A stretch of DNA of 64,000 nt. Origin: Polytrichum commune. Taxonomy: Eukaryota; Streptophyta; Polytrichopsida; Polytrichales; Polytrichaceae. The stretch's first letter is position 1. Each line of letters begins with the position of its first letter. Of the stretch, positions 10,987 to 50,100 are shown one piece after another. The translations under genes were made by a program, and so were the position numbers. The stretch spans positions 41,280,429 to 41,344,428 of the forward strand of contig OX485804.1 in assembly GCA_950295325.1 (NCBI GenBank), written 5' to 3'. The notes beneath the pieces are model-generated. The model was not told the DNA's origin. It searched no databases and saw only the letters and a list, made by a program, of their open reading frames with translations.

Positions 10987-13900
10987 ATGGCAGACATTAA
11001 GTTTTACTCTAGGGAGTGCATTATTTGGAACTTTGTGGCCCTATGCGTGTATGTGGGGACAGGGAAACTCTCCAACACCTTGGCGACTATTCAAGACCAG
11101 GCCTCCCCTATATGGGCTCCATCAGGAGTAATGGTAGCATTTGTCCTTACACTTGGCTACAATGTTTGGATTGGTGGTTTTCTAGGAAACGTGGTAATTA
11201 ATTTCTGGTACTTCCATAATTACCCGGCTAAATATTACATGCCCTCAAGTGTGGCATGTGCCGTATTCTCAACTTTGGAAGCTCTCATTTGTGGTTGGCT
11301 GCTCAACCATCCGGTGAAATGGAAGAATGGTCGTATTATTTTCCCTCCTCAGGTATGAATTCAAGATCCTCAGGAATGATGAGACATTTTCTGAACATGT
11401 GACTGGTCTCTACATAAGTATGCCGCAATGCTGGAGAATATTTTCTGCATAAAGATTATTTTGGGAATCAGTTCCACCTCTCTTTTCTTTTGGATATAGG
11501 ATGGAGATCAACCTGAAGTCTCTAGTGAGCAGGTTACTGTATGTGTATATATCTTGTTGACTGGCATGTAAAAGAAGCATACCCTTGGCCGTCTTGCAGG
11601 AGGTGAAGAAAGGGGCACTTACAGTGGACACATTGCATGATGCAATGTGGCTGTTCGTCGTGGTGCCATTTGTCAGCTTTGTGTGTGGAACTTGCAATTC
11701 GTTGTCCCTTTGTATTTTCAATCTTGCTCACTGGAATCAGTTTTTTGATATTTGGCCAACCTGGGTGCTTGGTGACCTCTCAGCTATTCTGTGTGTCACA
11801 CCCTGCATTCTTCATTTGTGGAATATTCTGCATCCAGATTTGTTACCAATTTGGGGACAAACTCAACAGTCCAGCATTCCGGGTAACGCATCACAGGCAG
11901 ATGATGACTCCCAACCACATATTGATTCTGAAGATGGGGTGATTTCCTCAGAGATTGTGGAATCACAACCACAGTCTTTGCTGTCACTCAGTAATACGCA
12001 AAGTGATGTAGCTCTCTTACCACTGAAAGACTTTGAGAATTATCGAGAACCCACTAACAAAGTTGATTCACAAAGCCTTGGGACTACTATCAACGATTCC
12101 TTTTCACATATGATCACATTGGACACAGAGGATAGAGGATCGCCAAATGGAATAGACAATCCAAGGACATCTACTTCCCACCAAGATCCATCAGTCAGGC
12201 AAAGTCTGGAAAAGTGGAAAGCTCAGTGGAACAAGTGGGTATTGGATCGGAGAGGGAAGTTGTGCTCCGGAGGGGTGAACACCACATCAATGTCTGTGGG
12301 TGAAGAGAAAAGTGAATCAAGTAGGGAGCCCAGACTCAACTCTGGCAGGAGACGTTTTCCTAGGTGCGCTTACCTTTGTCTGTTACTTCGTGGAAGTATT
12401 TTCAACTGCAATACTATCTCAGAAGAAGACATGTAAAGAAAGCATTTTATAAGACTCAATAGATGATGGTTTGGACTTACTCTTTTTCTGTATTTTTAGA
12501 ATATTGTTTTCCAAGTCAACTTTTGCTAGAGTAGTGAATAATCTCTATGTACCTATGAACCTATGCCATTAGGTTTTGGGGTGTGAACATAATGGACACT
12601 ACAAATGGTTGACAGGTCCCAACAGGCTTCAGACCTGATTGCTCGTTTACCACTCCTCAGAAAGGCTCCTCAAGTGTGTTCCCTACAAAGATTTGTACTG
12701 AAATTGGCAGAATGTGTGGCACTCTTCGTGGTTCTGATTGTCCTCTCATTAATCATTTTCTTCAATGTGGTAAGCTCACAATACAGAGTGCCTACATTTA
12801 AGATTTTATTGGAGATTATGAGTTACTTTGGATGTTGTTCTATGTGCATGCTGGGTTACTAGTTTAGAGCAGGATTTGGCTTCTCTATTTGAGAAAGTGT
12901 AACCGATTTGACATGTGTGACACAGCCAATTTTATTTGTGAAGCATGTGCTTAAATTATAGTGTATCCTGATGTGAAGATAACTAATGTGACAGGGAGTT
13001 CATGACACAAGTGCGGTTCAGCGACTTTCTTATCTGGTGTTTCCAGTGGTCATCTGGGCTTCATTTCGATTTAACCGTGTTGGGGTTCCTCTGGCAGTCC
13101 TTGTTGTTGCCATCATAGCCAGTTCTGGCACAGCAGCTCACAAAGGGCCACTTTACCGTATGAATGACAACCACTCACTTTTGCAGGTTTGTAAATGTTA
13201 TGTTTCTTAAGCCAGTGCATGGATCTCCTATCAGGAATCAATTCACACATTTATTAAAATTTAAAATTAGTTCTTGATTTGTGGCTACCATCCATTTTAT
13301 TGTAGATTTGTGTAGACCATCCAAAGAGAGCATGCCTTCAGATCTGTGAAGCATATTATCCCTGTGTGTTTTTTTAATATAGAATAATATATTAAAATGA
13401 GTTGATGCTAGCATCAGGTTATTCTCAAAATAGAGGGCGTGGAGCACCAGTATTATCATACTCTGTCTTGCGAAGTTTTGAATTTCATGCGTGTACTTCA
13501 ACCTGTGTACAGGTGCAAATGTATGTTTGTGTTTTGGCTGTTGTGGCCATCACCTTGGCAGCTATAGTTCATGATCGCAAAACCATGGAGAGTAGGCTCA
13601 ATGAATGGAACAGCACTCTTGAGCTACAGGTATCCTAACATCCGGTAACCACCCTGAAAGTTTATGCTATGTCAATTGTAATCTCCAGTTAGTCACATGT
13701 TAAAAATAAAGCCTGCATAGAGAGGCTTTAGCTACTTGCTTTGAGTGTAGAAGAGGTGCTTAGCTACCGAATGTAGTCTACAAAAACACGCCTTAAATGA
13801 ATTAGTTTCTCTCTACATTTGACAGTATATTGCTTTCATGGAATGAGGTGAGTGTTTGATGCCACATTACAGGTATGTGCACGGACAATTGAGTTGGAGC

Positions 13901-16900
13901 GAGCCAACAAATCCCTGACAGTGTCTCAAGCTGCCGCTGAGGAGGCCAGCCGAGCCAAGTCTGAGTTTCTTGCAAATATGAGCCATGAAATCAGGTAGCT
14001 TTTCGTACTACCACATTTGAGCAGCACCATTAGTAAGCAGCAGACGAGTAGCATATTTTCTAGTATTCAACTGCACATGGTGTAGGAGCTTTGGGAACAT
14101 TAGTGGAACTGACTTTGTGGCTGACATACAGGACCCCAATACATGGAATTATTGGAATGGCTTCACTTGCCCTCGAGACTGATCTAACTGATGAGCAGCG
14201 TGAACATCTGGAGACTGTATCCCAGTCAGCTGACTGTCTACTCCATATTGTGAATGCAATTTTAGATCTTGCAAAGATTGAGGCTGGCCGAGTTGAGCTA
14301 GAATGTGTGCATTTCAGTGTGTCACACACCATGGCTTCAACAATGAAGATGCTTCAGGTGAATTCCCATCCAGTCAAGTAGAGTGCTTAATTGTTCAACA
14401 AGTGCCACACCTCTACTTAGTTGATGCAGGTTCACTTAAAAACCTTCGAGGTACAAGGTCTGCATTTTTTGATTGCATGTCAATTGAAGAGGCACTGATT
14501 GAGGATTCTCTTGAGTGTGTTATGTTTCCTTTGATGGCTAATGGAGTGTGAATCTCTCAGGTTAGAGCAACTCAAAAGCAATTGAAGCTGTCATGGGAGG
14601 TTGATGGAAATGTTCCCAGCCATCTGGTGGGAGATGCAGGCAGGTTGCAGCAGTGTCTCATCAATTTAGGTGGTTTGTCTTGGCACTTGTCATGATTGTT
14701 TACCCTATGGCTTCTGGACTTCACCTTTAATAGACATAATTATGACTTCTGCTCGCTCTTGTGTTCATTGGTTTTCATAGGACTGGTGATTGATGGTTTC
14801 TAACTTGCATTGATACTGTTTGTTCATTTTCCTGACCACACACAGTACTCATTTGTTCCATCTGTGGCAGTTGGTAATGCAATCAAATTTACCCAAGAAG
14901 GTTCAGTTTCGTTTTCAGCAAAGATTTACACTGAAGATCTCCTATTAGAAAGAACTTCAAGTTCCAAACTCAAAAGGAGCAGTTTGGAAAGGAGCCATGG
15001 AAGTGGAATAAATTCCACCAGTTCTGTTAATGCAAACAAAGACAGCAGCCGAGGACCTCATTCTACTGAATCCTATTCGGAGAATCCTACAAAAGATGAA
15101 CACCATGTGATGGACATATATGACAAACCCACTCCTAATGGGGACATCAAGCGAAGTTCTAGTGGTATAAGTTCAAAGTATTCTTCAGGCAGTGGCATCT
15201 CACCGTCTGCCACCAAGGAAGGAAGTAAGTTGGAGCGGCGGCAGTCAGAGGGAAAGAGTAAGGCGGAAAAAGATAATAAGCTGAGATTGCTTTTCACTGT
15301 CAAAGACACAGGTATTGGAATAAGTAAGGAGAAGCAGAAAGAGGTGTTCAAAGCTTTCTCACAAGCTGATAGCTCAACTACTCGACTGTATGGAGGCACA
15401 GGACTGGGTCTCAGCATTGTTGAGCGGTATGGAGGCTATTCCAAAATTACAGAAATTTAGAAGTCCTTTCATAACTGTAATGGTAGGCCCATAGAGGTCT
15501 CTTTGATTTGGGGTTGCTTAATATGGCTGGGTGTGATGTGTAGTGCTTGATACATGAGTTGAAGTATCAGTTCAATATTTTTGCCATTGGTAGTATAGAT
15601 TCAAACATGATTTGGTGTTGATTATATACTTTTCTTTGAATTTCTCCAGGCTGGTCCAAATGATGGGTGGTCGGATATGGCTTGAAAGTGAGCCTGGTAA
15701 AGGTAGCACATTTTACTTCATTGCATGCTTTGAAACTGCCGAGAATCAAAGTTCAAGGGGTGGAGATGATTTGATATCTGAAGGAGATGAGAAGGATGTG
15801 AGTGATAAGTACTCTGAACCAAGTCAATCAAAGGAAGTCTTCAGAGACAGGTCAGATCCTCGAGAAGCAGCCAAACAGCAAGAAACTTCTGAGATTTCTA
15901 CTGCACCAACTAAGAACATGCATAATGAAATTGCTGCGAAAAGGACCGACGAAGCTCCCATCAGAGTGGGAAACCACAATCAACCTAGCACCTTGAGGCA
16001 AGTACTCCTATTATGAGCACATCTCTTGTTTGGCTTGAGGTGTAGCACATCACATGCATGATGAATGTCACCAATAAATGTGCTTTAAAAACGTCCTTTG
16101 TGCAATTTATTGATCTATAATTTCTCAACAATCTCAAAGAACCTCTTTGTTACCTGAAAGTATTGAAGCTAGCCATGTAATAAATGGCTGGTAATCTGCT
16201 TGCCTAGAAGCTTGTTAATTGCCAGGATTGGCAACAATGTTATTTAGTCTGCTGTAAATATTTCATCATCATGAAATGTGGAAGGTGCCATTAGAATTCT
16301 TGATATTGGAATTGACAAACCATGCAGGCAAAAGAGATATAACAGTATAGCAGCAGGTTCAATACCTAAAGTCCCAAGTGACTTGCCTTTACCGATCAAG
16401 TCATCAAGTTTTCCAAGAAATTCAGATAGAGACCCCTCAATGGAGGATGTGGATCCCAAATTTGAAGGTTTACTTCGAGGAATGAAGATATTACTTGCAG
16501 AAGACAATGTTGTCAATCAGAAAGTTGCTTGTCAGCAGCTTAAGAAATATGGGATGCATGTGGAGGTGGTGTCGGATGGTCAACAATGTTTGGATGCCTT
16601 AGAAGGGCATCGAGATGACTTTGAACTCATCCTTATGGATGTCCAGGTATGCCTTTGTTTCCTTTTGAAATTTCATTCTCAAAAGATGCTACGATAGGAC
16701 ATTCAAGGGAGATGTTTTGTAAGAGAAACTCATGTTGCATGCATGGGAGTTACTTGTGATTAAGTTCTCAGTATCCGAGTATGGATGTAGGTTTTATGGA
16801 TTTTGATGGAAGGTTCAAGTGGTAACCGATCATCTACATTTTGGGTTCATTTTATAATCTAGACCTGAATTGTAGTTTATGCTCCTTCATGACTGTGCTT

Positions 16901-17323
16901 CCTCTTTGCTTACTGATAGCTAGGGGGTGCATGTCTTGAATATCATAAAAAGAAGGAAAATAGAGTTGTTATCAGAATATTTGTTATTACAATTATCATA
17001 TGATGGTATTTTGTGTCTCATAATTTGTGCAGATGCCAGTTCTGGATGGATTGGAAGCAACCCGAAAGATAAGGGAAATTGAGATTCAGCATAAGTATCC
17101 ACACAAGCCCATTATAGGCCTTACTGCTCATGCCATTCAAGGCTATAAAGACAAATGCTTAGGAGCAGGCATGGATGCTTATGCATGTAAGCCTTTTCAA
17201 GCTAGAGAGCTAATTCAAGTTATACAAAGAGTTTGTAGAAAGTGGTCCACCAAATTTATAGAAGCAGAAACTTGTCTCACAGCTGGGGTGGTTGCAGAAG
17301 AGGAAGAAAGGGAGAACCTGTAG
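10987..17323 (+). CDS. MASE1-domain hybrid histidine kinase (13 coding exons)
   Basis: Predicted membrane sensor kinase that autophosphorylates on His and passes phosphate to its own receiver Asp. Exons: 10987-11352, 11500-11532, 11600-12363, 12616-12769, 12995-13186, 13513-13629, 13873-13994, 14132-14357, 14561-14669, 14871-15426, 15650-15997, 16328-16646, 17033-17323. They join in frame to 1198 residues. The start is the first in-frame ATG; the frame is open upstream to a stop at 10864 but has no ATG. Domains: MASE1-like membrane sensor (about 10-535; SPIWAPSG near the start, WVLGD in the middle, [11 protein letters not shown] and GTAAHKGP at the end), split by a hydrophilic loop of about 190 residues; HisKA with MSHEIRTP (His about 580); HATPase with an N box ([11 protein letters not shown]), DTGIGIS, FSQAD and GGTGLGL, interrupted by a Ser/Lys-rich insert of about 115 residues; receiver (about 1048-1175) with AEDN, phospho-acceptor Asp about 1100 in LMDVQMP, and Lys in CKPF. 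All key residues are present. Intron 11 is GC-AG. The family call is firm; the ligand is unknown. Confidence 0.93.
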
Positions 17324-18371: not shown

Positions 18372-21300
18372 CTAATTTACAGATTTCATGAAGTTGAGCA
18401 GAGCTCCATTGACTTGCTCGGGAACCTCGTCATGTGGGCAATGTCCAGCTTGCAAACGCACCATTGTAGCCTTTGGGTAGAGTCTCTTAATCTGGTCGCA
18501 CTTTGATGGACCCATCCAAGGGTCCAGATCTCCCCACAACAGAAGCATTGGACATGAAATTTGGCTCAAAAGCTCATTCATTGTGGCATTCTTCTTTTGA
18601 AACAATACACCCGTCATAAGCCTGCATTCACCCACATCAAGAGAGATAGAAAAAAAATTCAGCTCCACATTCAAAATTCAGCTCCACATTCAACATCTTC
18701 TCAAAGAGACTTATGAATTATTTCAAGTAGTACATGGCCCACACTATTTCTAAGCATCCACATTCCGAAATTAATGTTGACCACAACAATCACAACATCA
18801 ACATTGCATTTTGGTTACAAAAAAGGTGGTGCATACCACATGAAAAGGTTTGGTGTCCAAAACAAGGTACAATACAGGGTACGTTATACATGCGAGTGAT
18901 GTAAAAGATCTTGTGTACATGTCAAATTTGTGGCACCACCGTTGTCATCAATGCGCATCACAGTAAACCACTTGACATGTGATTTTTTGGGGGGTTCAAA
19001 TAATATATATTGAGAAGTCAATTAATGTAAATGCTTGTCCATGTGCCAACACAATTCCCTTGGAATCCTCACAAGCACCAACTTCATTTTTATTAAAGGT
19101 TCAGTAATAATAGTATAAAAGTTCTTCAAGAGCCTATGTAATGAAATAGTAAAAATTAGTATAACACTAATAGAGATGAAATTAAAACATTAGTAGAAAT
19201 TGGAACAAAACATATTATTATCGTCAGAGTTCTGGGTTTTCCAAACAATTTGTCTCGCCGCCTCTACAAAGGATGTATTACATAGAAAGAAACCACTCCC
19301 TTCAATCTACTACATAAGGTACATAAAGTGCAGGTATTGAAGTGCACCTGTAATATACCTCCCCTGCATTTGGATCATTTGTAGGTTGCACAATGGAGTT
19401 TACTAGATAATCGTCGACATTAGTTTGATCCTTGTATACCTACATTAAGCAGCATCACATGGTTCAGAATCAGTAACAAACTTCACATAAAATTTATCAG
19501 CAAATCGCCATATGATGATGTCACACAAAATGAAACCATAATATATCAGCACTTCAGTGTTATTTTACTCACATTCTGAAGAACTGACTTGATACGAGCT
19601 GGTTGCTTGGCTTGCCAAAAGGCAAATAATATTGTATACTTGCGGACCGTGTCCTTTATTGGGTTGATTACAAGGCGGTTTACGAAGGTTTCTTCAGCTT
19701 CGATGACATCCTTTTGTGTGGTCTCGCTGCCCAATTTTTGGTCTGGGTCTGAGCTCTCAAACTGGCCGGATGCATTTAGCAGAACTAGCCCTGATACTAG
19801 GTTTGGATAGGCAGTTGCTGTGTTCAAAACAGTGAACCCTCCCACACTGCACAATGCTCACAAACATCCAACATGAATCAAGATTAAGCACATAGGCACC
19901 TCCACAAACTCAAGCTTAGATCAATGGGTTGTTGGTTAAACTTAAAAAAAACTCAATTCTTTGTTCTTGCAAGTCTAATCCCATGTTAGCTTTGAAAGAG
20001 CACTCCAACATATTGCATTCTCACCCATGTGTTCTACCCGACCCATGATCAAGCCCCCAACTTGCAAACAAGGTTACCCATTCTCGAGGTTGGTATGATC
20101 ATAACAAAAGTATCTAAAACACATAAGGGGCATGCCAACGTATTAGTAATAGTGACCTCTGACAAACATAAACCTTTTTTATTATTATTTGAGATGTCTA
20201 GGTTAGGCTTTACGGTATGAGCAACTCCAATAATAAGGTCACTATGTAATGACTAGAGACAGCCTTGAGGTTTGAATATGCACTATGCAACAAAAACTCG
20301 CTAAGACTAAGAGTGTGGTTCTAAAGAGAAGTGGGAATTTAACGTTGATCTCATCAAGCGTGTATGGTGCAATTTTATCTCCATAAAAATTAACTCTAGA
20401 TAGACTCTCCACCCCCTTCCACCTTGTAATATGGGTTTCAGAAAGCCAAAAACTAAGGTTCAGATATGACGAAGGTACTTGAAGAAGGTGGTACCAAAGT
20501 GACTTCAACAGTCCATTTTTGGCATCTCAATGGAAACGTACCCTAAATGCCCACCAACAATATGTACCCGATGACCTGCCTTAAGATATGATCAAAATCG
20601 TTAAAAAGTTTGAAGATCATCAAATTCATGCATGCTTGGAAAGAAATCGAAAAAAACAAATACCTGTTTCCTGCAAGTACGGCCGGCTTGCCCACAACCT
20701 CCTTGAGAAAGTCGCCAACTTGATCTCGCCATACGTTTGCATTATACTCTATCAACGCTTTCTCGGACAACCCAAACCCAAGAAGGTCCATTGCGTATAC
20801 TGTGTGGGTCTTGGCCAACTCTGGGATGTTATATCTGCCCGAGGACACCAGTCAAACTGTTAAACCCAATTCATAGAGATAGATAGAAAGATAGCCTGAA
20901 TTCTAACCTCCAAGGAAGCAAGCATGAATGAAGAGTCTCTTCATCCGCAGGCTACTCAAATCAAATTTATTATGGACAAGATAACCCCTCTCCTCTCGTT
21001 GGTTATGAGACACCATAATGTGTTTTCCAGCTTCAATATATCCATAGAACACGTAGAACGTGAAAGTGCTTGCCAATGTTGGACCAATGCCATCTATTTT
21101 CAATACCAATTGCATATAAGGTAATGAGGATTTTACATTTTATTGATATCGGTAGGGTATTTGAGCATGTTTTTATCTTTGATACCATTCGAATCTATAC
21201 ACCATGCAAGAACCTTCATTACTTTGCTGATATTATAACTCCGTTAACAAACATGTAGGAGTCATAACATTACTCAACATGCAGCTCTCGTTCTCTGGGC

Positions 21301-24145
21301 CCTCAGAATATAACAACGGGATGCTCGAAAAGCTGCGCAAGGAGACTCAGAGCATCCCACTGTCATATTCCGAGGGTCCGTGTCGTTGAGTACTGTTACA
21401 ATCTTTGATACCAAATTATTGACATTGTATACTGATACCGATACATTCACCCACCTACATACCGGACCAAAATTGACACATACCTCCAATGAAATGCGGA
21501 TGCCCCGAAGCCGTGAATTAAAACGATCGGAGGGCCCTGGCCTTGCACCACATAGTGCACCTTCGATCCTCGCCATGTCCAAAAGTTGTATCCGTCTTTC
21601 TTGAATGGTAGCATTTCGAGACCTGCCCATGAACCAAAACCACAAGGTTGAGGCATCCGATACAGGCAAATTGGGCTCCAACACCACCGGCAACTAGGTC
21701 GCAATGTTTACAACAAAACTTCCAACATCAAAAGATTATGCCGTCCCTCCAAGGATTCGTAAGGAGAACCGCAACTTCAAACACACCCACCTCATTCAAT
21801 AAATGGGGTGTGGTCCGACAGATCGTTTGTTGCAAAGTGTACTACAAAGTTCTTCACGAGTTCTTCAACGATGCACATAATCTACTCTTGATGGAAAAAT
21901 TATGTTACATGTTAAATGATGTGCTCGCGGCCACCTGTTGCACCGTGCACCCGAGTGCACCCATGGTCTTTATCCTCTCTATATATTGGAGACATTCTAT
22001 ATTTTTCTGCTATGTAAAATTGAACTCCTTATGACACTTCCAAGAGCACCATTTTAGGTGTCTTCAAATATTTGTCATGACATTCGTTGTTACGTTGCAG
22101 TTTTTGGCCAAAGTCGAACGCACTCCTTTCAATTCAATAAATTGGGGGTTCCAACAACACTTTGAGACTCCAAAAAATGTCAAAAAAGTGGGCCAAAATT
22201 CCCTACCAACCCAGGAGTCTCTAAGACACTTTTAGGATAACTCTATTATACGGTGATCGCACATGTGATAAGGCCATCGATGTTCAACCTTTCCAAAATA
22301 GTTGGATGTTGATGGTTGCTTGTTGAATGGACGGTGCGATGGCTAGGCACATTAATTGGTAAGGTTGACATGCCTATTTCAGATACTTATCTTAATCAAA
22401 CACCTATATTTGAGTGGCATGTGGTGAGATGTGACTCCAACGAATGAACACCAAAAAGGCATCATGTGTTTCAATTAGATTGGACTACTACACGCTTAAC
22501 CGCTCTAGACTCAATAATCAACATAATTGCGGAACCTCTATGACAACTTAATGAACATGAGAATCTTCACTTTGTTTATGAATAAAATATTCATGTGAGC
22601 TCTAAAAATGATGAAAAAAGCGGTTACGCCCTTGATTTGGATTTGAATATAACCATCTCGTACCAATCTTGTGTTTCACATCCAAGAAGAAGTGGGCTAG
22701 TCGGGAAACAGTAACCATTTGAGACCCATCTACCTCTTGTACAAATGCGACGGATCGGTCCGGCCCCAAACTCGTCTAATCCATTTCATATTGGAGACTA
22801 TAGATCCCCAAGAAGTGAATGAAAGGAAGTTGCATAATTTGTGTGTATGTGCATGTGATGTGGAGAGTGGAGAGAAGGAAATGAAAAGCAAACCTTTGTT
22901 GCCCGGAGGTCCTTCCACTGCGGCAGTCTCCGCCATGGCTGCCGTGCACACAAGCAACCCGGCGGCGGCAGCAGTCAGCGCACCGTCTCTCACAAATGCC
23001 CTCCTTGGCACCTTCAATTCACCTGCACATAGCTCACACAGATTAAGTTAAACGGCCACATCAATTTTCTATCAGCTACCGGCATCCATTGATCAGTGCA
23101 AATTTGACAATTCGGATTCAGCAGCCGCAAAAGGCTAATTTCATCCTCGTTAATTAGCATTTCACGTTTATCTTCTGCCGGAATTTCCCCTCACGCGGCG
23201 TGGCAAGCCTGGTAGCTCAAGCACCGCTACTCAATTGCAACAAACTGCCGCCGACCAACATAGGCCTGAGTCGGTGGAGGATTAAAGGGAAAGGAGGGCT
23301 CCCACAACAGTTTCCATCAGCTAATGGTATCAATTATTCAAAGAATTTAGACAATTGGGACAATTTCGACAATTCAGGTTCAGCAGCCAGAAGAAACTCA
23401 TGTCATCCCTAATCATTTCACATGACGTATTCTGCCAGAATTTCCCCGTCAACTCAATTGTGCAGACAGCAATCGCAAATGCTCAAAAGTGTCCAAAGCT
23501 AAGTAGCTCCAACACCGCTACTTAATTGTCCACTCAGTTGCAACTCAATTTCACAAACTGCCGCCGACCTGAGTGATGGTGAATTGAAGGGATAGGATGA
23601 CTTCCCACAACAATTCCCTTCAACTCCTGGCATTACTTATTATTTATTCCACTAAATCTGGACTATGGCGACGATGTCGACCATTCAGCAGCCAGAAGAA
23701 ACTAATGTCATCCTAAGCGCTTCACAAGACGTATTTTGCCAGAATTCCCCCTCAAATCAATTATCCACACAGCAATCTCAAATGCACCAGACTGTCCAAA
23801 GCCTAGTAGCTCAAGCACCGCTACTTAAATTCTCCACTCAACTGCAACTCAATTTCCCAAACTGCCGCCGACCAAGATACTGAGCCCGACTGAGACGGTG
23901 GAAGATTGACAATGGCAAATATGGACGTAGTTCTCACCAACCAAGGGAGTCCCCGCCCCCGTCCTCCTCCTGCCGCCGGAAATTCGAAGTGGCTGCTTGA
24001 GCTTCGCAACTAGTAATCTCCGTCCACCGAAACTCCGGACCAGTGCGACTTCAACTCGATGGCTCCTGCGCACACATTCTGTTTGAAAACTCCTCGCAGC
24101 AGATTGAACAACCAAGTGCTTCCGACTCACTATGGCTTGTTCCAT
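18372..24145 (-). CDS. Plastid alpha/beta-hydrolase (7 exons), probable thylakoid-lumen transit peptide
   Basis: Serine hydrolase of the alpha/beta fold, closest in my memory to the plant plastid protein typified by Arabidopsis AT4G36530; its substrate is unknown to me. Exons in transcript order: 24145-23938, 23022-22894, 21622-21484, 20834-20664, 19846-19573, 19439-19348, 18621-18372. They join in frame to 420 residues. The N-terminal 69 residues are basic and acid-poor, like a stroma-targeting peptide. Then come Arg76-Arg77, a hydrophobic Ala/Leu stretch and Ala-Met-Ala at 98-100, the layout of a Tat-type lumen signal. The catalytic fold follows: LIHGFGAS oxyanion loop, nucleophile elbow GNSVGG (Ser216, codon split across exons 4 and 5), acid in LWGDLDPW (Asp371) and His398 in QAGHCPHDE. 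The catalytic set is complete and the mature length of about 320 residues is normal. Introns 1, 2 and 3 hold repeats. The gene is convergent with the kinase. Confidence 0.92.
21297..21379. mobile_element. Small foldback element in hydrolase intron 3
   Basis: An inverted repeat of about 30 bp (starting GGGCCCTCAGAATATAACAA, ending with its near complement) flanks a spacer of about 25 bp. A related copy in opposite orientation lies at about 53687-53823, sharing the flanking CATAACATTACTCAACATGC block. Confidence 0.65.
22350..22735 (+). repeat. Dispersed repeat family B in intron 2 of the hydrolase
   Basis: Contains TTTGAGTGGCATGTGGTGAG, AGATTGGACTACTAC, CTTCACTTTGTTTATGAATA and GAGCTCTAAAAATGATG. 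It lies on the strand opposite to the gene. Confidence 0.65.
23023..23937 (-). repeat. Three imperfect tandem repeats filling intron 1 of the hydrolase
   Basis: A unit of about 310 bp recurs roughly three times (about 23055-23290, 23290-23590, 23600-23910). Each carries the landmarks CCGCTACT, then CAAACTGCCGCCGACC, then a GGTGAA/GGTGGA block. Spacing between landmarks is conserved while bases diverge. The array lies between exon 1, which encodes the transit peptide, and exon 2. Confidence 0.7.
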
Positions 24146-26814: not shown

Positions 26815-27200
26815 GCCCATGCCCATGCCCATGCCCATGCCCATACCCACCCATGCCCATGGGTTTTGGGTGGGCATGGTTGAGCTATTATTGTTCATGG
26901 GCGGGCATGGGTGGGCATGGCTGAGCTATTATTGTTCATGGGTGGGCATGGGTGGGCATGGCTGCGATATTATTGTTCATGGGTGGGCATGGGTGGGCAT
27001 GGGTGGGCATGGGTGGGGCACAATTACACAATTACACAATTACACAATACACATTACATAATTTTTGAATACATGGGCGCAATTTGAATAGCATGGGTGG
27101 GCATGGGTGGGCACATGTCATGCTATGTGTGGGCATGGGTGGGCATGGGTGCGCACATGTCATGCTATGGGTGGGCATGGGTGGGCATAGGTCGCTGCTG
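26815..27200. repeat. G-rich minisatellite array of GGGTGGGCAT blocks
   Basis: It starts with CCCATG hexamers (about 26817-26850). Then GGGTGGGCAT blocks alternate with a spacer containing GAGCTATTATTGTTCAT (period about 41 bp, about three times), then with CACATGTCATGCTATG (period about 43 bp, two to three times). The switch from C-rich to G-rich makes a long imperfect palindrome near 26850-26880. Confidence 0.85.
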
Positions 27201-30764: not shown

Positions 30765-32870
30765 TGACAATATTCCACAAAGTATTCTATGATATTCCCC
30801 ATGTGAAGAATATTCTATGGAATATTGTCGAGGTCACCTTCAAACCCTCAGCAACTTAGACGGTGTAACCCGCTGCTGACCAGTTTATATGGACACTACA
30901 CTTATCTAAATTAACTTTTGAAGGTGTTTCCTCTTGGATAAATTTCTAAGGAGAAAGTAGTCTAAGCTTTCAAGCTTATGTTCCCCGAAATCCTAATGTC
31001 GAGGTTAAGTGTTATGAATGAAGAGAGTGTTCTTTTGTAATCAATAACAACATTTTTCCATTCATTTATAAATCCTCGACCAAAGTTCACAATCACATTA
31101 CTTTGAGAGTTTTCATTTAACAATTCATTGCAATGCCTTCAAAGTGGAAGTTGACTACTTGATGGTCTTTAATTTCTTCTTTTCTCGAATGATGGCTTTG
31201 AAATCCTCTTAATGTCTTCATTCTTCTAAAGTTCCTTTTTGTCTGGTTTTCCTTTGTATTCTCTACTCATGAGAGTTTAGTTCTTCATTCTTGAATATTT
31301 CTAAATTCCTAGGAAGGATCTTCTCTAATCTTCCTATTCTCTTGAGTGCTTCGGTCTTGGATTCCTTACGCAATCTTCTTTGTCTTCACGATGAGCTTCG
31401 GATTTTGTCAATCTCTTAGCATCTTCACTTTTGATATCTTGACATCTCCTTAGACCCAAAAGGTATCTTAGATCTTGGTTAGAAAGTTCGTTTAAACCTT
31501 TAGTCCTCAAAAGGGCTTCAAACTTGCGGTCTTGGTCTCGGGCTTGCGGTCCTCTGGTCCCGCGGGCCCTTAGTCTCCAAATCTTGAGAAGAAAGCTTTG
31601 AATGTCTTCAAGTCTTTTCTTGTAGTCCTTGATTTCGTAATCTTTTGAAAAGACCTTCAAATCCTAAAGTCCTCTCGGCCTCTGGTACTGTGGTCCTTCA
31701 GTTGCGCGGGCCCTCAGATTTTAAGACCGGCGTCGTGCCTCCGCGATTCTTCGAACTCGTTCTTTACGGATCTTAATTTAAAGACCGGCTCCGATCAATT
31801 CCCCGGACCTTCGGTCTCGTGGGCCTTCAACTCGAAGACCGGCGAAAAGCAAACTTGCGGACCTTTAATTCAAAGGCCGGCTTCGTGCAATCTTGCGGAC
31901 CTTCGAATCAAGGCCGGCTTCGTGCAATCTTGCGGACCTTCAAATCAAGGCCGGCTTCGTGCAATCTTGCGGACCTTCAATTCAAGGCCGGCTTCGATGA
32001 CGCTCACGTAGGAATGTTGGAAATGATTAATGAGGTGCTATAGGGGTCCGTAGTGCCCCTTTATATAGGTTTTTGAAATCTTAAAATTGGTTGAATTAGC
32101 GGTTAGGGGTGGCCCCTAATGCCAAATGTCTAAATAGGCTAATTTTAGTATGAATCAAGGCTGCAGTCTAAATTTAGGTTTGTCGGATCTATTTACAGAA
32201 CCCCACACGTGCTAAATATAGATGTTATTGTGGGGAAGATTGGTTATGTTCTTCTAATTTCCTAGATGTGCCTAGGTGTGTTCAGTTACCATCCATGAGT
32301 CATTCATTCCCAATTTCATCCTTCATTGCTTAGATAGTTAAGGCGGTTAATGTCATCCAAGGGATGGAAATCCCTTGGCTTTGTCTTTCATCCTCATCTT
32401 TAACAAGTAAGTACGTGTTCACTACTTGCTAAGTAAAGTAGCTAAGTGCTTACTAAAGAAGGCTAAGATTAACTCCTAATCTTTCCGTCCATATCCGGCC
32501 CCGTCACGTTCCCGAGGAACCCGGCTCGTTCCCCTCCTCTTAGCCCTAAAAGGACCGGCTTCCCACTCTGTCCCATCATCTCGCCGCCTCCCGGTCTTCT
32601 CGCACCAGCTCCCTCGAGTTTACAAGTACCCAGCCGTCCTGGGTATTAACCCAGTCTTCTCTCCATCCCGGGTCTCTCCCCGCTGGGTCCCTTTCAAGCC
32701 GCCACTTGTCTGCCTTCTCGCTTCCTCGGCCAGCGCTCCATTCTCTCTCTCTGCCCTCGGAGACGCTCCCTCGGCCATCGCTCCATCCTCTGTCCTCGGA
32801 ATTCTTCACTTTGGATCTTCGCACCTACAGTTGATAGTCTTCACTGATCACACAAATATTGTCAATCCCA
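30765..32870 (-). mobile_element. LTR-like block, probable old solo LTR
   Basis: Read on the minus strand, it begins TGTGGGATTGACAATATT and ends AATATTGTCAGTCCCATA, matching inverted ends in the TG...CA style of long terminal repeats. A TATATAAAGGGGC box lies near 32070 with a CT/GC-rich tandem region downstream. Length is about 2.1 kb, with no coding domain and no second copy in the window. No clear target duplication was found, so it looks old. A large non-autonomous DNA element is the alternative. Confidence 0.45.
31855..31992. repeat. 37-bp tandem repeat, about four units, inside the LTR-like block
   Basis: The unit reads CTTGCGGACCTTCAAATCAA followed by GGCCGGCTTCGTGCAAT, repeated head to tail with one or two changes. 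Looser relatives continue on both sides (31500-31850). There are no spacers of constant length, so this is not a CRISPR array. Confidence 0.85.
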
Positions 32871-36096: not shown

Positions 36097-36393
36097 CCGG
36101 GGAGATTTTTGGGCATAGTCAGTCAAGATCCTAGTGTTTCGAAATCCAACCGGTTACATGCTGTGATCTTTTGGTTTTTCTTTATTAAATTGAGGTATAC
36201 TCCATTGATTCTTCTAAAATGATACATAATTTCTCAGAAATTTTGAACTCCAAGCGGGTATCTCTCAAGCTCAACCGGTTCATCTGTAACTAGCGGTCGG
36301 TTCTCCCCGTTCATTGAACTTCAAGCAGGTATCTCTCAAACTCAACCGGTTCATCTGTAACTAGGGGTCGGTTCTCTCCGTTCATTGTTCAAG
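36097..36393 (+). repeat. Dispersed repeat family D with an internal tandem unit
   Basis: Starts GTCCGGGGAGATTTTTGGGC. The segment from the Arg-like CTCAACCGGTTCATCTGTAA block to CGTTCATTG is present twice in tandem, about 78 bp per unit (near 36241-36393). Other family members are at 51057-51287 and 59215-59345. Confidence 0.7.
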
Positions 36394-37294: not shown

Positions 37295-37630
37295 CCCGGG
37301 GAGGGCAGTGTGTTAAAAAGTTAAGGATATAGGTGCGAACAACCACTATTTTATAGGGGGGTATTACTTTCAATTCTCTTTTTTTTTTCACATGCTATCA
37401 TTATATAATTTTCTACTTTGGGTTAATAGAAAAATGGTTTGCATTACTTATAATTCCAAATTCCTTATTATTCCATACCCTATAGTACTTTAAAGATGTC
37501 CAGTGCCATTTTTGATACCCTATATTACTCTGAAGTCCAATTATAATTTTTTGCCCCCATGTTTTTAAAATACCCTATCATTTGTTCGCACGTATATTGC
37601 TACTCCAACCAATGACTACCCTCCCCGGGG
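37295..37630. mobile_element. hAT-type MITE, copy 1, with 8-bp target duplication CTTTGGGT
   Basis: CTTTGGGT occurs at 37287-37294 and 37631-37638. Between them is 336 bp starting CCCGGGGAGGGCAGTG and ending ACTACCCTCCCCGGGG, which are inverted repeats. The element is non-coding. An 8-bp duplication is the hallmark of the hAT superfamily. Confidence 0.88.
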
Positions 37631-38044: not shown

Positions 38045-38386
38045 CTCGGGGGGGGGGGGGGGGCAGTGTGTTAAAAAGTTAAGGATATAGGTGCGAACAA
38101 CCACTATTTTATAGGGGGGTATTACTTTCAATTCTCTTCTTTTTTTCACATCCTATCATTATGTAAATTTCTACTTTGGGTTAATGAAAAAATGGCTTGC
38201 ATTACTTATAATTCCAAATTACCTATTATTTCATACCCTATAGTACTTTAAAGATGTCCAGTGCCATTTTTGATACCCTATATTACTCTTAAGTCCATTT
38301 ATAATTTTTAGCCCCCATGTTTTTAAAATACCCTATCATTTGTTCGCACGTATATTGCTACTCCAACCAATGACTGCCCCCCCGAG
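38045..38386. mobile_element. hAT-type MITE, copy 2, with 8-bp target duplication TGTTCATC
   Basis: TGTTCATC occurs at 38037-38044 and 38387-38394. The 342-bp element lies in the same orientation as the copy about 0.4 kb upstream and is highly similar along its whole length. Its left end has expanded into a run of about 17 G. Confidence 0.88.
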
Positions 38387-45853: not shown

Positions 45854-47209
45854 ATGTTTTTGTTCGATTGGTTCTACAGCGTGCTTGCCACCCTAGGGTT
45901 ATGGCAGAAGGAGGCCAAAATCCTGTTTCTCGGTTTGGACAACGCGGGCAAGACCACTTTGCTGCATATGCTCAAGGATGAGGTGAGAGAGGCACATGTG
46001 TCTCATAGTCGAAAGCATTCTTTCACGTGCTAGGGTTTGGTGTATGGGGTTTGCTATGGATGTGATGTGATGTGATGTGATGTGTGGTATGGGAGGAATC
46101 GATCTGGTCGTAGTTGAGAGACGGGGTGATGGTCGTGGCATGTGGGGGTTGCATATGTTAGACTTAGGAATAGAGAGAGGAGACTGTCATCATTGCGGGT
46201 CGATGTGATTATTTATTCTTACGGAATTGTTTCGTTCTTTGACAATACAGAGGCTGGCGCAACATCAACCTACGCAGTATCCTACATCGGAAGAGCTGAG
46301 CATCGGGAAAATCAAGTTCAAAGCGTTTGACTTGGGGGGTCACCAGATCGCCAGACGAGTGTGGAAGGACTACTACGCTAAGGTATGGTGCTGTGCATAT
46401 GGCGTTTCTCATTCCATTTAGAGATGTATGTGTGTGTGCTGGCAGTGAATGATGTTCGGTTGCTGTGACGGATGCTCCCAGTGTCATAAGGCATGCATGC
46501 AATGCTGGAAATAGAGATGTCTACTTGAGTAGAGTGGAATGAGTTGATTTTGCTGAATCGAATGTTGACTACTTTACGATTCAGGTGTCGTAGGGGAGTT
46601 CGCTGGCTTCGAAGATGCTTCAAGCCAGGAATGGTGGATAGGACATTGTGATATTTGGTAGTTAGGGTTACGATTGTCAAGGTCCAGTTCATTGTAAATT
46701 TTTTAATTCTTTCCAATTCACACTTTTCAAACAATTCTTACACACGTACCATGGGCCAAATTCCCTTCATTAGGGTTTGCAGACACATCATGGTTGTCCT
46801 TGAGTTAATATTTGAAGGGAGTATATGTGGGGAATTTGAGTCTGAGGTTGAAGCTTAGCTGGTTCCTGAACGTTATATACCCATGCAGGTTGATGGTATT
46901 GTCTACTTGGTAGACGCAGCAGACAAGGAAAGGTTTCCAGAGTCCAAGAAGGAGCTGGATGCTCTTTTGTCAGACGACTCACTTGCACAAGTTCCCTTTC
47001 TCATTCTGGGCAACAAGATTGACATCCCCTATGCAGCATCAGAGGATGAGTTGCGGTACTCATTGGGGCTAAGCAACTACACCACAGGGAAGGGCAAGGT
47101 GAATCTTGGGGAGACCAACATGCGACCCATTGAAGTTTTCATGTGCAGTATTGTGCGGAAGATGGGATATGGAGAGGGCATCAAGTGGATGTCACAGTAC
47201 ATCAAGTAG
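45854..47209 (+). CDS. SAR1: SAR1 small GTPase (COPII coat assembly), 3 coding exons
   Basis: GTPase that recruits Sec23/Sec24 to ER exit sites and starts COPII vesicle budding. Exons 45854-45982, 46251-46382 and 46889-47209 join in phase 0 to 193 residues, the normal SAR1 length. An amphipathic, aromatic N-terminal helix ([11 protein letters not shown]) inserts into ER membrane; unlike ARF proteins there is no myristoylation Gly at position 2. The P-loop GLDNAGKT is at 27-34, switch region TQYPTSEEL at 51-59, DLGGH with catalytic His74 at 70-74, NKID at 129-132, and the C-terminus is [12 protein letters not shown]. All nucleotide-binding motifs are intact. The start is fixed by the conserved N-terminus. 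CT- and GA-rich tracts and a palindromic G-box lie just upstream. Confidence 0.97.
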
Positions 47210-49640: not shown

Positions 49641-49949
49641 AAAACAATTGAGGCAATCAGGCAGACAGAGGAATTACCAGATGTGGTGCACAATCATAAT
49701 GCAAATTTATGAGCAAGAGTGATGGGAAGGTTCTTCAGGAGGTCTCCGCTTTGCAGAAGGTGCGCAACACGACAAGGAGCAAGTGACAAGATCCAACGCG
49801 ATACGAGTAGGTGAACGAGTGAACAGATCTGATACTCCGATGCAATTTTGTGAGCAGAAGGTTGTGCAAGGAGTCCGCTCTTCGCGCTAAACATGACGAG
49901 CAAAATGTGAAGGTCAGAAGCCAGGGAGCAATTGGAGCACTATGGCGAA

Positions 49950-50100
49950 GGACAGAGGCGGAGGCGCGGGGCACTGTGTAGATTGCAGAGGACGGAGGCA
50001 GAGGAGAAGTGCGCATTGGGCGGAGGACGGAGGCGGAGGCGCGGGGCATTGTGTAGATTGCAGAGGACGGAGGCAGAGGCGAAGTGCGCATTGGGCGGAG
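49950..50100. repeat. Two tandem GC-rich units of about 75 bp inside the hAT element
   Basis: The unit starts GGAC(A/G)GAGGCGGAGGCGCGG and includes TGTGTAGATTGCAGAGGACG; two nearly identical copies sit head to tail. They create overlapping open frames on both strands with low-complexity Arg/Gly- or Cys/Pro-rich products. Confidence 0.75.

Follow-up and report, generated by a model that had tools for sequence, protein, structure and literature searches.

The gene at 10987-17323 on the forward strand of the window encodes, in our reading, a membrane-bound hybrid histidine kinase that takes its input through a MASE1 bundle and acts in the plant phosphorelay; we put the probability of this at roughly 75%. 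By "the window" we mean the whole stretch of DNA that was analysed, 64,000 nucleotides of Polytrichum commune (C2:41280429-41344428), taken from an assembly of 407.8 Mb in 64 contigs, of which C2 accounts for 70.3 Mb. Both the MASE1 module and the domain architecture are already known from bacteria, and here they are found inside an established family of plant hybrid kinases. Such proteins would add a phosphorelay input beyond those of the cytokinin, ethylene, AHK1-, AHK5-, and CKI1-type kinases.

The gene was rebuilt from the DNA as 13 exons that are predicted to splice in frame into a protein of 1198 residues (Table 1). Eleven of the 12 intron donors are GT and one, after exon 11, is GC; all 12 acceptors are AG, and every junction is in frame. 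The coordinates, the length, and the order of motifs given in a sequence-only reading of this DNA are thus reproduced by the new model, and so is its claim that MASE1 is joined in frame to HisKA, HATPase, and a receiver with their catalytic residues, which the rebuilt exons, the Pfam matches, and a residue check all bear out.

Table 1. Exons of the MASE1 kinase gene, in window positions (a slash within a motif marks an intron site)
Feature	Position	Strand	Content
Exon 1	10987..11352	+	Start codon, TM1-TM3 of MASE1, residues 1-122; MASE1 match from residue 16
Exon 2	11500..11532	+	33 bases, TM3/TM4 loop; spliced in frame; least certain exon
Exon 3	11600..12363	+	TM4-TM5 including WVLGD, followed by the bulk of the Ser-rich insert (residues 223-405)
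Exon 4	12616..12769	+	End of insert and TM6
Exon 5	12995..13186	+	Second half of MASE1, including GTAAHKGP
Exon 6	13513..13629	+	Final TM helix and start of coiled-coil linker; LLQ/V site precedes exon
Exon 7	13873..13994	+	Linker and first part of HisKA, phosphorylation site H580
Exon 8	14132..14357	+	Remainder of HisKA
Exon 9	14561..14669	+	Linker from HisKA to ATPase domain
Exon 10	14871..15426	+	N box (N697), 108-residue Ser-rich insert, G1 and G2 boxes
Exon 11	15650..15997	+	End of HATPase_c and linker; GC donor
Exon 12	16328..16646	+	First part of receiver: E1054-D1055, D1100
Exon 13	17033..17323	+	Last part of receiver: T1133, K1155, stop codon

The Pfam MASE1 profile (PF05231), proposed earlier as the check on the sensor, matches the whole protein significantly (E 1.3e-25; 90.5 bits against a curated cut-off of 29.8). 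The match is in two pieces: residues 16-209 align with profile positions 4-171 and residues 422-525 with 194-298, so that the profile, 299 positions long, is covered as a whole domain interrupted by an insert. Since each half exceeds the cut-off when scored separately (59.4 and 45.6 bits), the match is not a chance one. The earlier statement that the first 535 residues are MASE1 therefore stands as to the domain but not as to its continuity: it is split at 223-405 by 183 hydrophilic residues, including 30 Ser. A second insert of 108 residues (721-828; 28 Ser) lies inside the HATPase domain.

All parts of a hybrid histidine kinase are present, namely HisKA (570-635, E 1.9e-21), HATPase_c (831-904, E 3.6e-26), and Response_reg (1050-1166, E 5e-22), and activity is predicted from the residues in place: H580, N697, D840, G842, G872, G874, E1054, D1055, D1100, T1133, and K1155, which we take to have the catalytic roles usual in these families. 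No CHASE domain was found in the protein (Pfam, E 0.01). Kyte-Doolittle analysis predicts a multi-pass module N-terminal to the kinase, with eight hydrophobic stretches (overlaps merged) between residues 10 and 528. Positive charge is unevenly spread over the loops: Lys or Arg makes up 5 of 31 residues in the loop joining TM3 to TM4 and 10 of 38 in the last part of the insert, but none of the 14 and 7 residues of two loops nearby; by the positive-inside rule, this weakly suggests that loop and insert face the cytosol.

The window gene has three diverged paralogues elsewhere in the genome, at C2:68.46 Mb, C2:33.69 Mb, and C1:54.59 Mb, all of them hybrid kinases. An exon-by-exon search with Pfam MASE1 returned four matches, two exons of the window gene and two other loci, and the fourth locus was found via its kinase part. 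The receivers of all three paralogues score 88.6-90.9 bits, and in two of them MASE1 is above the cut-off (48.3 and 40.4 bits); the third has no Pfam MASE1 match at 0.001, yet it resembles the window gene along the sensor in tblastn. Over the kinase part, the paralogues are 55-57% identical to the window gene; the next long matches reach 36-42%.

The introns bear on descent. Four sites in the kinase part are common to all four genes: HEI-R/TP (phase 2), NL/V (phase 1), R/L or F (phase 2), and DVQ/MP (phase 0). A further site, LLQ/V (phase 0), is common to the window gene and two of the three paralogues. As the HEIRTP site is uninterrupted in all three other kinases of the genome that were looked at, the shared introns point to one plant ancestor of the four copies, and the descent of the four MASE1 kinases from a single ancestral plant gene is supported. 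The MASE1 part has extra introns in the window gene and is a single exon in the paralogues. What we see looks like a family that has settled in this plant genome. The earlier claim of a plant gene with a MASE1 input holds in that the gene sits in a nuclear genome with introns, with CHASE kinases, and with a SAR1/Arf neighbour; that reading overlooked the division of the sensor and the presence of three paralogues.

To place the sensor among its bacterial relatives, we ran a plant MASE1 profile (A4) on samples of four bacterial phyla. Only the best candidates of each genome were scored, and the counts are therefore lower bounds. At E <= 1e-14, the profile matched at least 44 of 339 genomes of Cyanobacteria (at least 73 at <= 1e-8), the phylum with the strongest match of all (2.2e-29); at least 10 of 291 in the phylum of the MAG 'bacterium PMG_196' (at least 14 at <= 1e-8; best 7.3e-23); at least 3 of 398 Pseudomonadota (best 8.3e-21); and at least 4 of 288 in the phylum of a Lentisphaeraceae MAG (best 1.6e-27). 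Pfam found MASE1 in all 20 bacterial proteins scanned, and six of these show the order MASE1-HisKA-HATPase_c-REC with no other named domains between. Four of the six are cyanobacterial hybrid kinases (L014, L099, L105, and L150), with the domains and order of the window protein; L014 is 26% identical to it over MASE1, and the cyanobacterial kinases differ in having neither sensor nor ATPase inserts, nor introns. Many cyanobacterial MASE1 kinases, including the best profile match (L139), carry intervening PAS or GAF domains. The other two, L151 and L136, belong to the phylum of the Lentisphaeraceae MAG and have the same order again; L151 has the highest MASE1 identity (31%), and the kinase part of both is set apart in the kinase tree.

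A close bacterial donor was not found in plasmid, viral, and genome scans or with the plant profile in the four phyla. The plasmid tblastn search gave 64 records, all from Rhizobium, Sinorhizobium, or Bradyrhizobium, with about 24-26% identity among the 30 listed; the viral scan gave no relative; and the bacterial genome scan gave 203 relatives among 342 pattern matches, of which 80 were kept. A Roseibium plasmid protein annotated as a CHASE-domain protein (L013, 2929-6549) opens with a shortened MASE1-like part and thus has two sensor modules. Two Rhizobium MASE1-PAS kinases (L008 and L009) lie beside several response regulators, and one of the records calls the kinase NodV-like. A Streptomyces MASE1 protein of 326 residues (L012, 2911-3891) ends soon after the membrane part and adjoins a gene for a PP2C-type phosphatase.

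Trees were inferred for the two parts of the protein: one of MASE1 with 68 hand-thinned rows, 64 of them bacterial (duplicates and most Streptomyces and rhizobia were dropped), and one of the kinase part with 52 rows, including 45 of 63 bacterial kinase matches. Because the bacteria were picked by their likeness to the plant profile, these trees cannot show which is nearest among all bacteria. The same four plant rows form one clade in both (100/99 each time). No bacterial row exceeds 31% identity to the window MASE1, and the plant MASE1 clade has no supported bacterial sister in the tree of 68 rows. In the kinase tree, the plant clade stands beside L147 and L148 (Pseudomonadota), another plant kinase, and a Lentisphaeraceae kinase (support 85/85). 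AU tests rejected none of the groupings tried: plants with the cyanobacterial hybrid kinases (p 0.269 for MASE1 and p 0.203 for the kinase part), plant MASE1 with all sampled cyanobacterial rows (p 0.151) or with L151 and L136 (p 0.295), and the plant kinase part with two of the genome's ethylene-receptor-like kinases (p 0.313). We take the genome's kinases with the HEMRTPMHAIIALSS motif to be ethylene-receptor-like.

How might such a protein work? In the mechanism we propose, the MASE1 helix bundle would serve as the input module, and a signal in the membrane would alter its last transmembrane helix, which would extend as a coiled coil to HisKA, neither a PAS nor a HAMP domain intervening. 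The kinase would then phosphorylate H580, the phosphate would pass to D1100 of its own receiver, and from there along the usual route of plant phosphorelays, by way of an HPt protein to a response regulator. The structure modelled is that of the cyanobacterial relative L014 rather than of the plant protein: it is predicted with confidence as an all-helical bundle (mean pLDDT 87.1, pTM 0.82, 38 aligned sequences) whose last helix (291-357) leaves the membrane part in the direction of HisKA (Pfam start 375). From this model, we infer that the window protein may couple MASE1 to HisKA in like manner, via residues 504-570. Plant CHASE cytokinin receptors and ethylene receptors are hybrid kinases of the same phosphorelay kind with other sensors.

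For the nature of the input, we turn to two proteins of Escherichia coli. MASE1 is the N-terminal membrane input module of DgcE and UhpB, as in the window protein. In DgcE, the GTPase RdcA docks on MASE1, which is also required for turnover (PMC6510439). DgcE is a diguanylate cyclase, unlike the window kinase, and UhpB differs in having HisKA_3 and no receiver. The MASE1 of UhpB scores 60.3 bits in Pfam against 90.5 for the window protein, and the plant profile A4 does not detect UhpB, which makes it a distant guide. The gene uhpC adjoins uhpB and is annotated as sensing glucose-6-phosphate, and UhpC signals to UhpB. Because both proteins take their input from partner proteins, we favour a partner here as well: by analogy, MASE1 may mainly dock a second protein of the membrane, either a GTPase or a receptor resembling a transporter, instead of offering a pocket for a soluble hormone, a proposal to which we give even odds.

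Other accounts have to be weighed against these. Bacterial contamination of the assembly, or a transfer of very recent date, would account for a domain and a domain order that are both bacterial, but the gene is cut by 12 spliceosomal introns, lies inside a 70.3 Mb contig, shares introns with three paralogues, and has a SAR1/Arf gene in the same window, and the bacterial MASE1 rows of the tree are no closer than the 31% given above; we leave this account virtually no chance. The introns, the position, the paralogues, and the neighbouring genes rule out bacterial contamination as such. A different doubt is raised by the two Ser-rich inserts (223-405 and 721-828) and by the greater divergence of the paralogues in the sensor (28, 29, and 25% identity to the window copy in the A4 alignment) than in the kinase (55-57%), which would suit a vestigial MASE1 that merely anchors the protein in the membrane, the kinase being set by phosphorylation of the inserts or by partners of the linker. 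We consider this unlikely: in the window copy, both MASE1 halves exceed the Pfam cut-off and 9 of the 14 near-invariant columns (those shared by at least 90% of the 64 bacterial rows) are kept. The paralogues keep 7, 8, and 6 of these columns, and their sensors could be decaying or re-purposed, given these losses and the one copy that has no Pfam MASE1 match.

The stronger competitor is that MASE1 is itself the receptor, binding a small molecule or lipid or sensing the state of the membrane (osmotic or redox). Eight residues conserved between plant and bacteria (P45, W185, W188, G191, P201, R464, F465, and G469) lie in or near the membrane, as expected if a site for binding or gating were buried there. 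A PDB fold search with a bacterial relative gave 248 matches at E <= 10 and none at E <= 0.001, and a PDB sequence search with MASE1 found no relative, its one match being at chance level (E 0.94). Against a receptor of this kind stands the reliance of DgcE and UhpB on partner proteins, and we hold it a real contender at somewhat less than even odds. Docking of a partner remains our preferred reading of the input.

As to origin, MASE1 receptor kinases may have been taken up from bacteria early in the history of green plants, the cyanobacterial ancestor of the plastid being one possible source. The fuller scenario, a family of bacterial uptake that was kept by seed-free plants and lost in seed plants, and that reads a membrane partner rather than a hormone, is put forward as a tentative one, with the odds leaning against it. 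If true, it would give seed-free plants a class of phosphorelay input with no flowering-plant counterpart. Kinases of bryophytes that are unknown in seed plants are already in print: PMC6137987 describes a non-hormone hybrid kinase class in charophytes, bryophytes, and lycophytes that was not found in ferns and seed plants and whose best bacterial matches include cyanobacterial proteins. That class differs in its sensor, which is PAS and not MASE1, and the paper never uses the term 'MASE'. MASE1 is widespread in bacteria, and PMC8846402 counts it among the sensory domains of unknown purpose. The open-licence full-text literature yielded no report of MASE1 in plants' own kinases, although Ishida 2010 (moss) or a survey of eukaryotic kinases from 2019 may already list them. 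A plant MASE1 family offers a genetically tractable setting for finding what the domain reads.

The wider genome has 37 exon matches to HisKA and CHASE exons at six places. The exon-by-exon search gave no match for Hpt (PF01627), though small genes that are split into short exons, as plant HPt genes are, can escape a search of this type. Dynein_heavy exons occur at eight places, and dynein heavy chains are not known from flowering plants. This indirectly makes swimming sperm, and with it a seed-free plant, likely, as a genome of 408 Mb would be unusual for a cycad or Ginkgo. Within the window, Rfam gave no match. The SAR1/Arf-type GTPase gene has two exons (45854-47209, forward strand; Pfam Arf). 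About 1 kb downstream of the kinase gene, on the opposite strand, lies an alpha/beta hydrolase gene (18372-21707, reverse strand), whose joined exon pieces match Abhydrolase_1 at 2.6e-23 and whose single exons have no match at 0.001. A direct repeat of 300 bases, 95% identical between 37298-37597 and 38056-38355 (starts 758 apart), might mark the termini of a small non-autonomous LTR element. Tandem repeat arrays are found at 26867-27192, 31849-31996, 36243-36387, and 49944-50100, with periods of 41-42, 37, 71, and 75.
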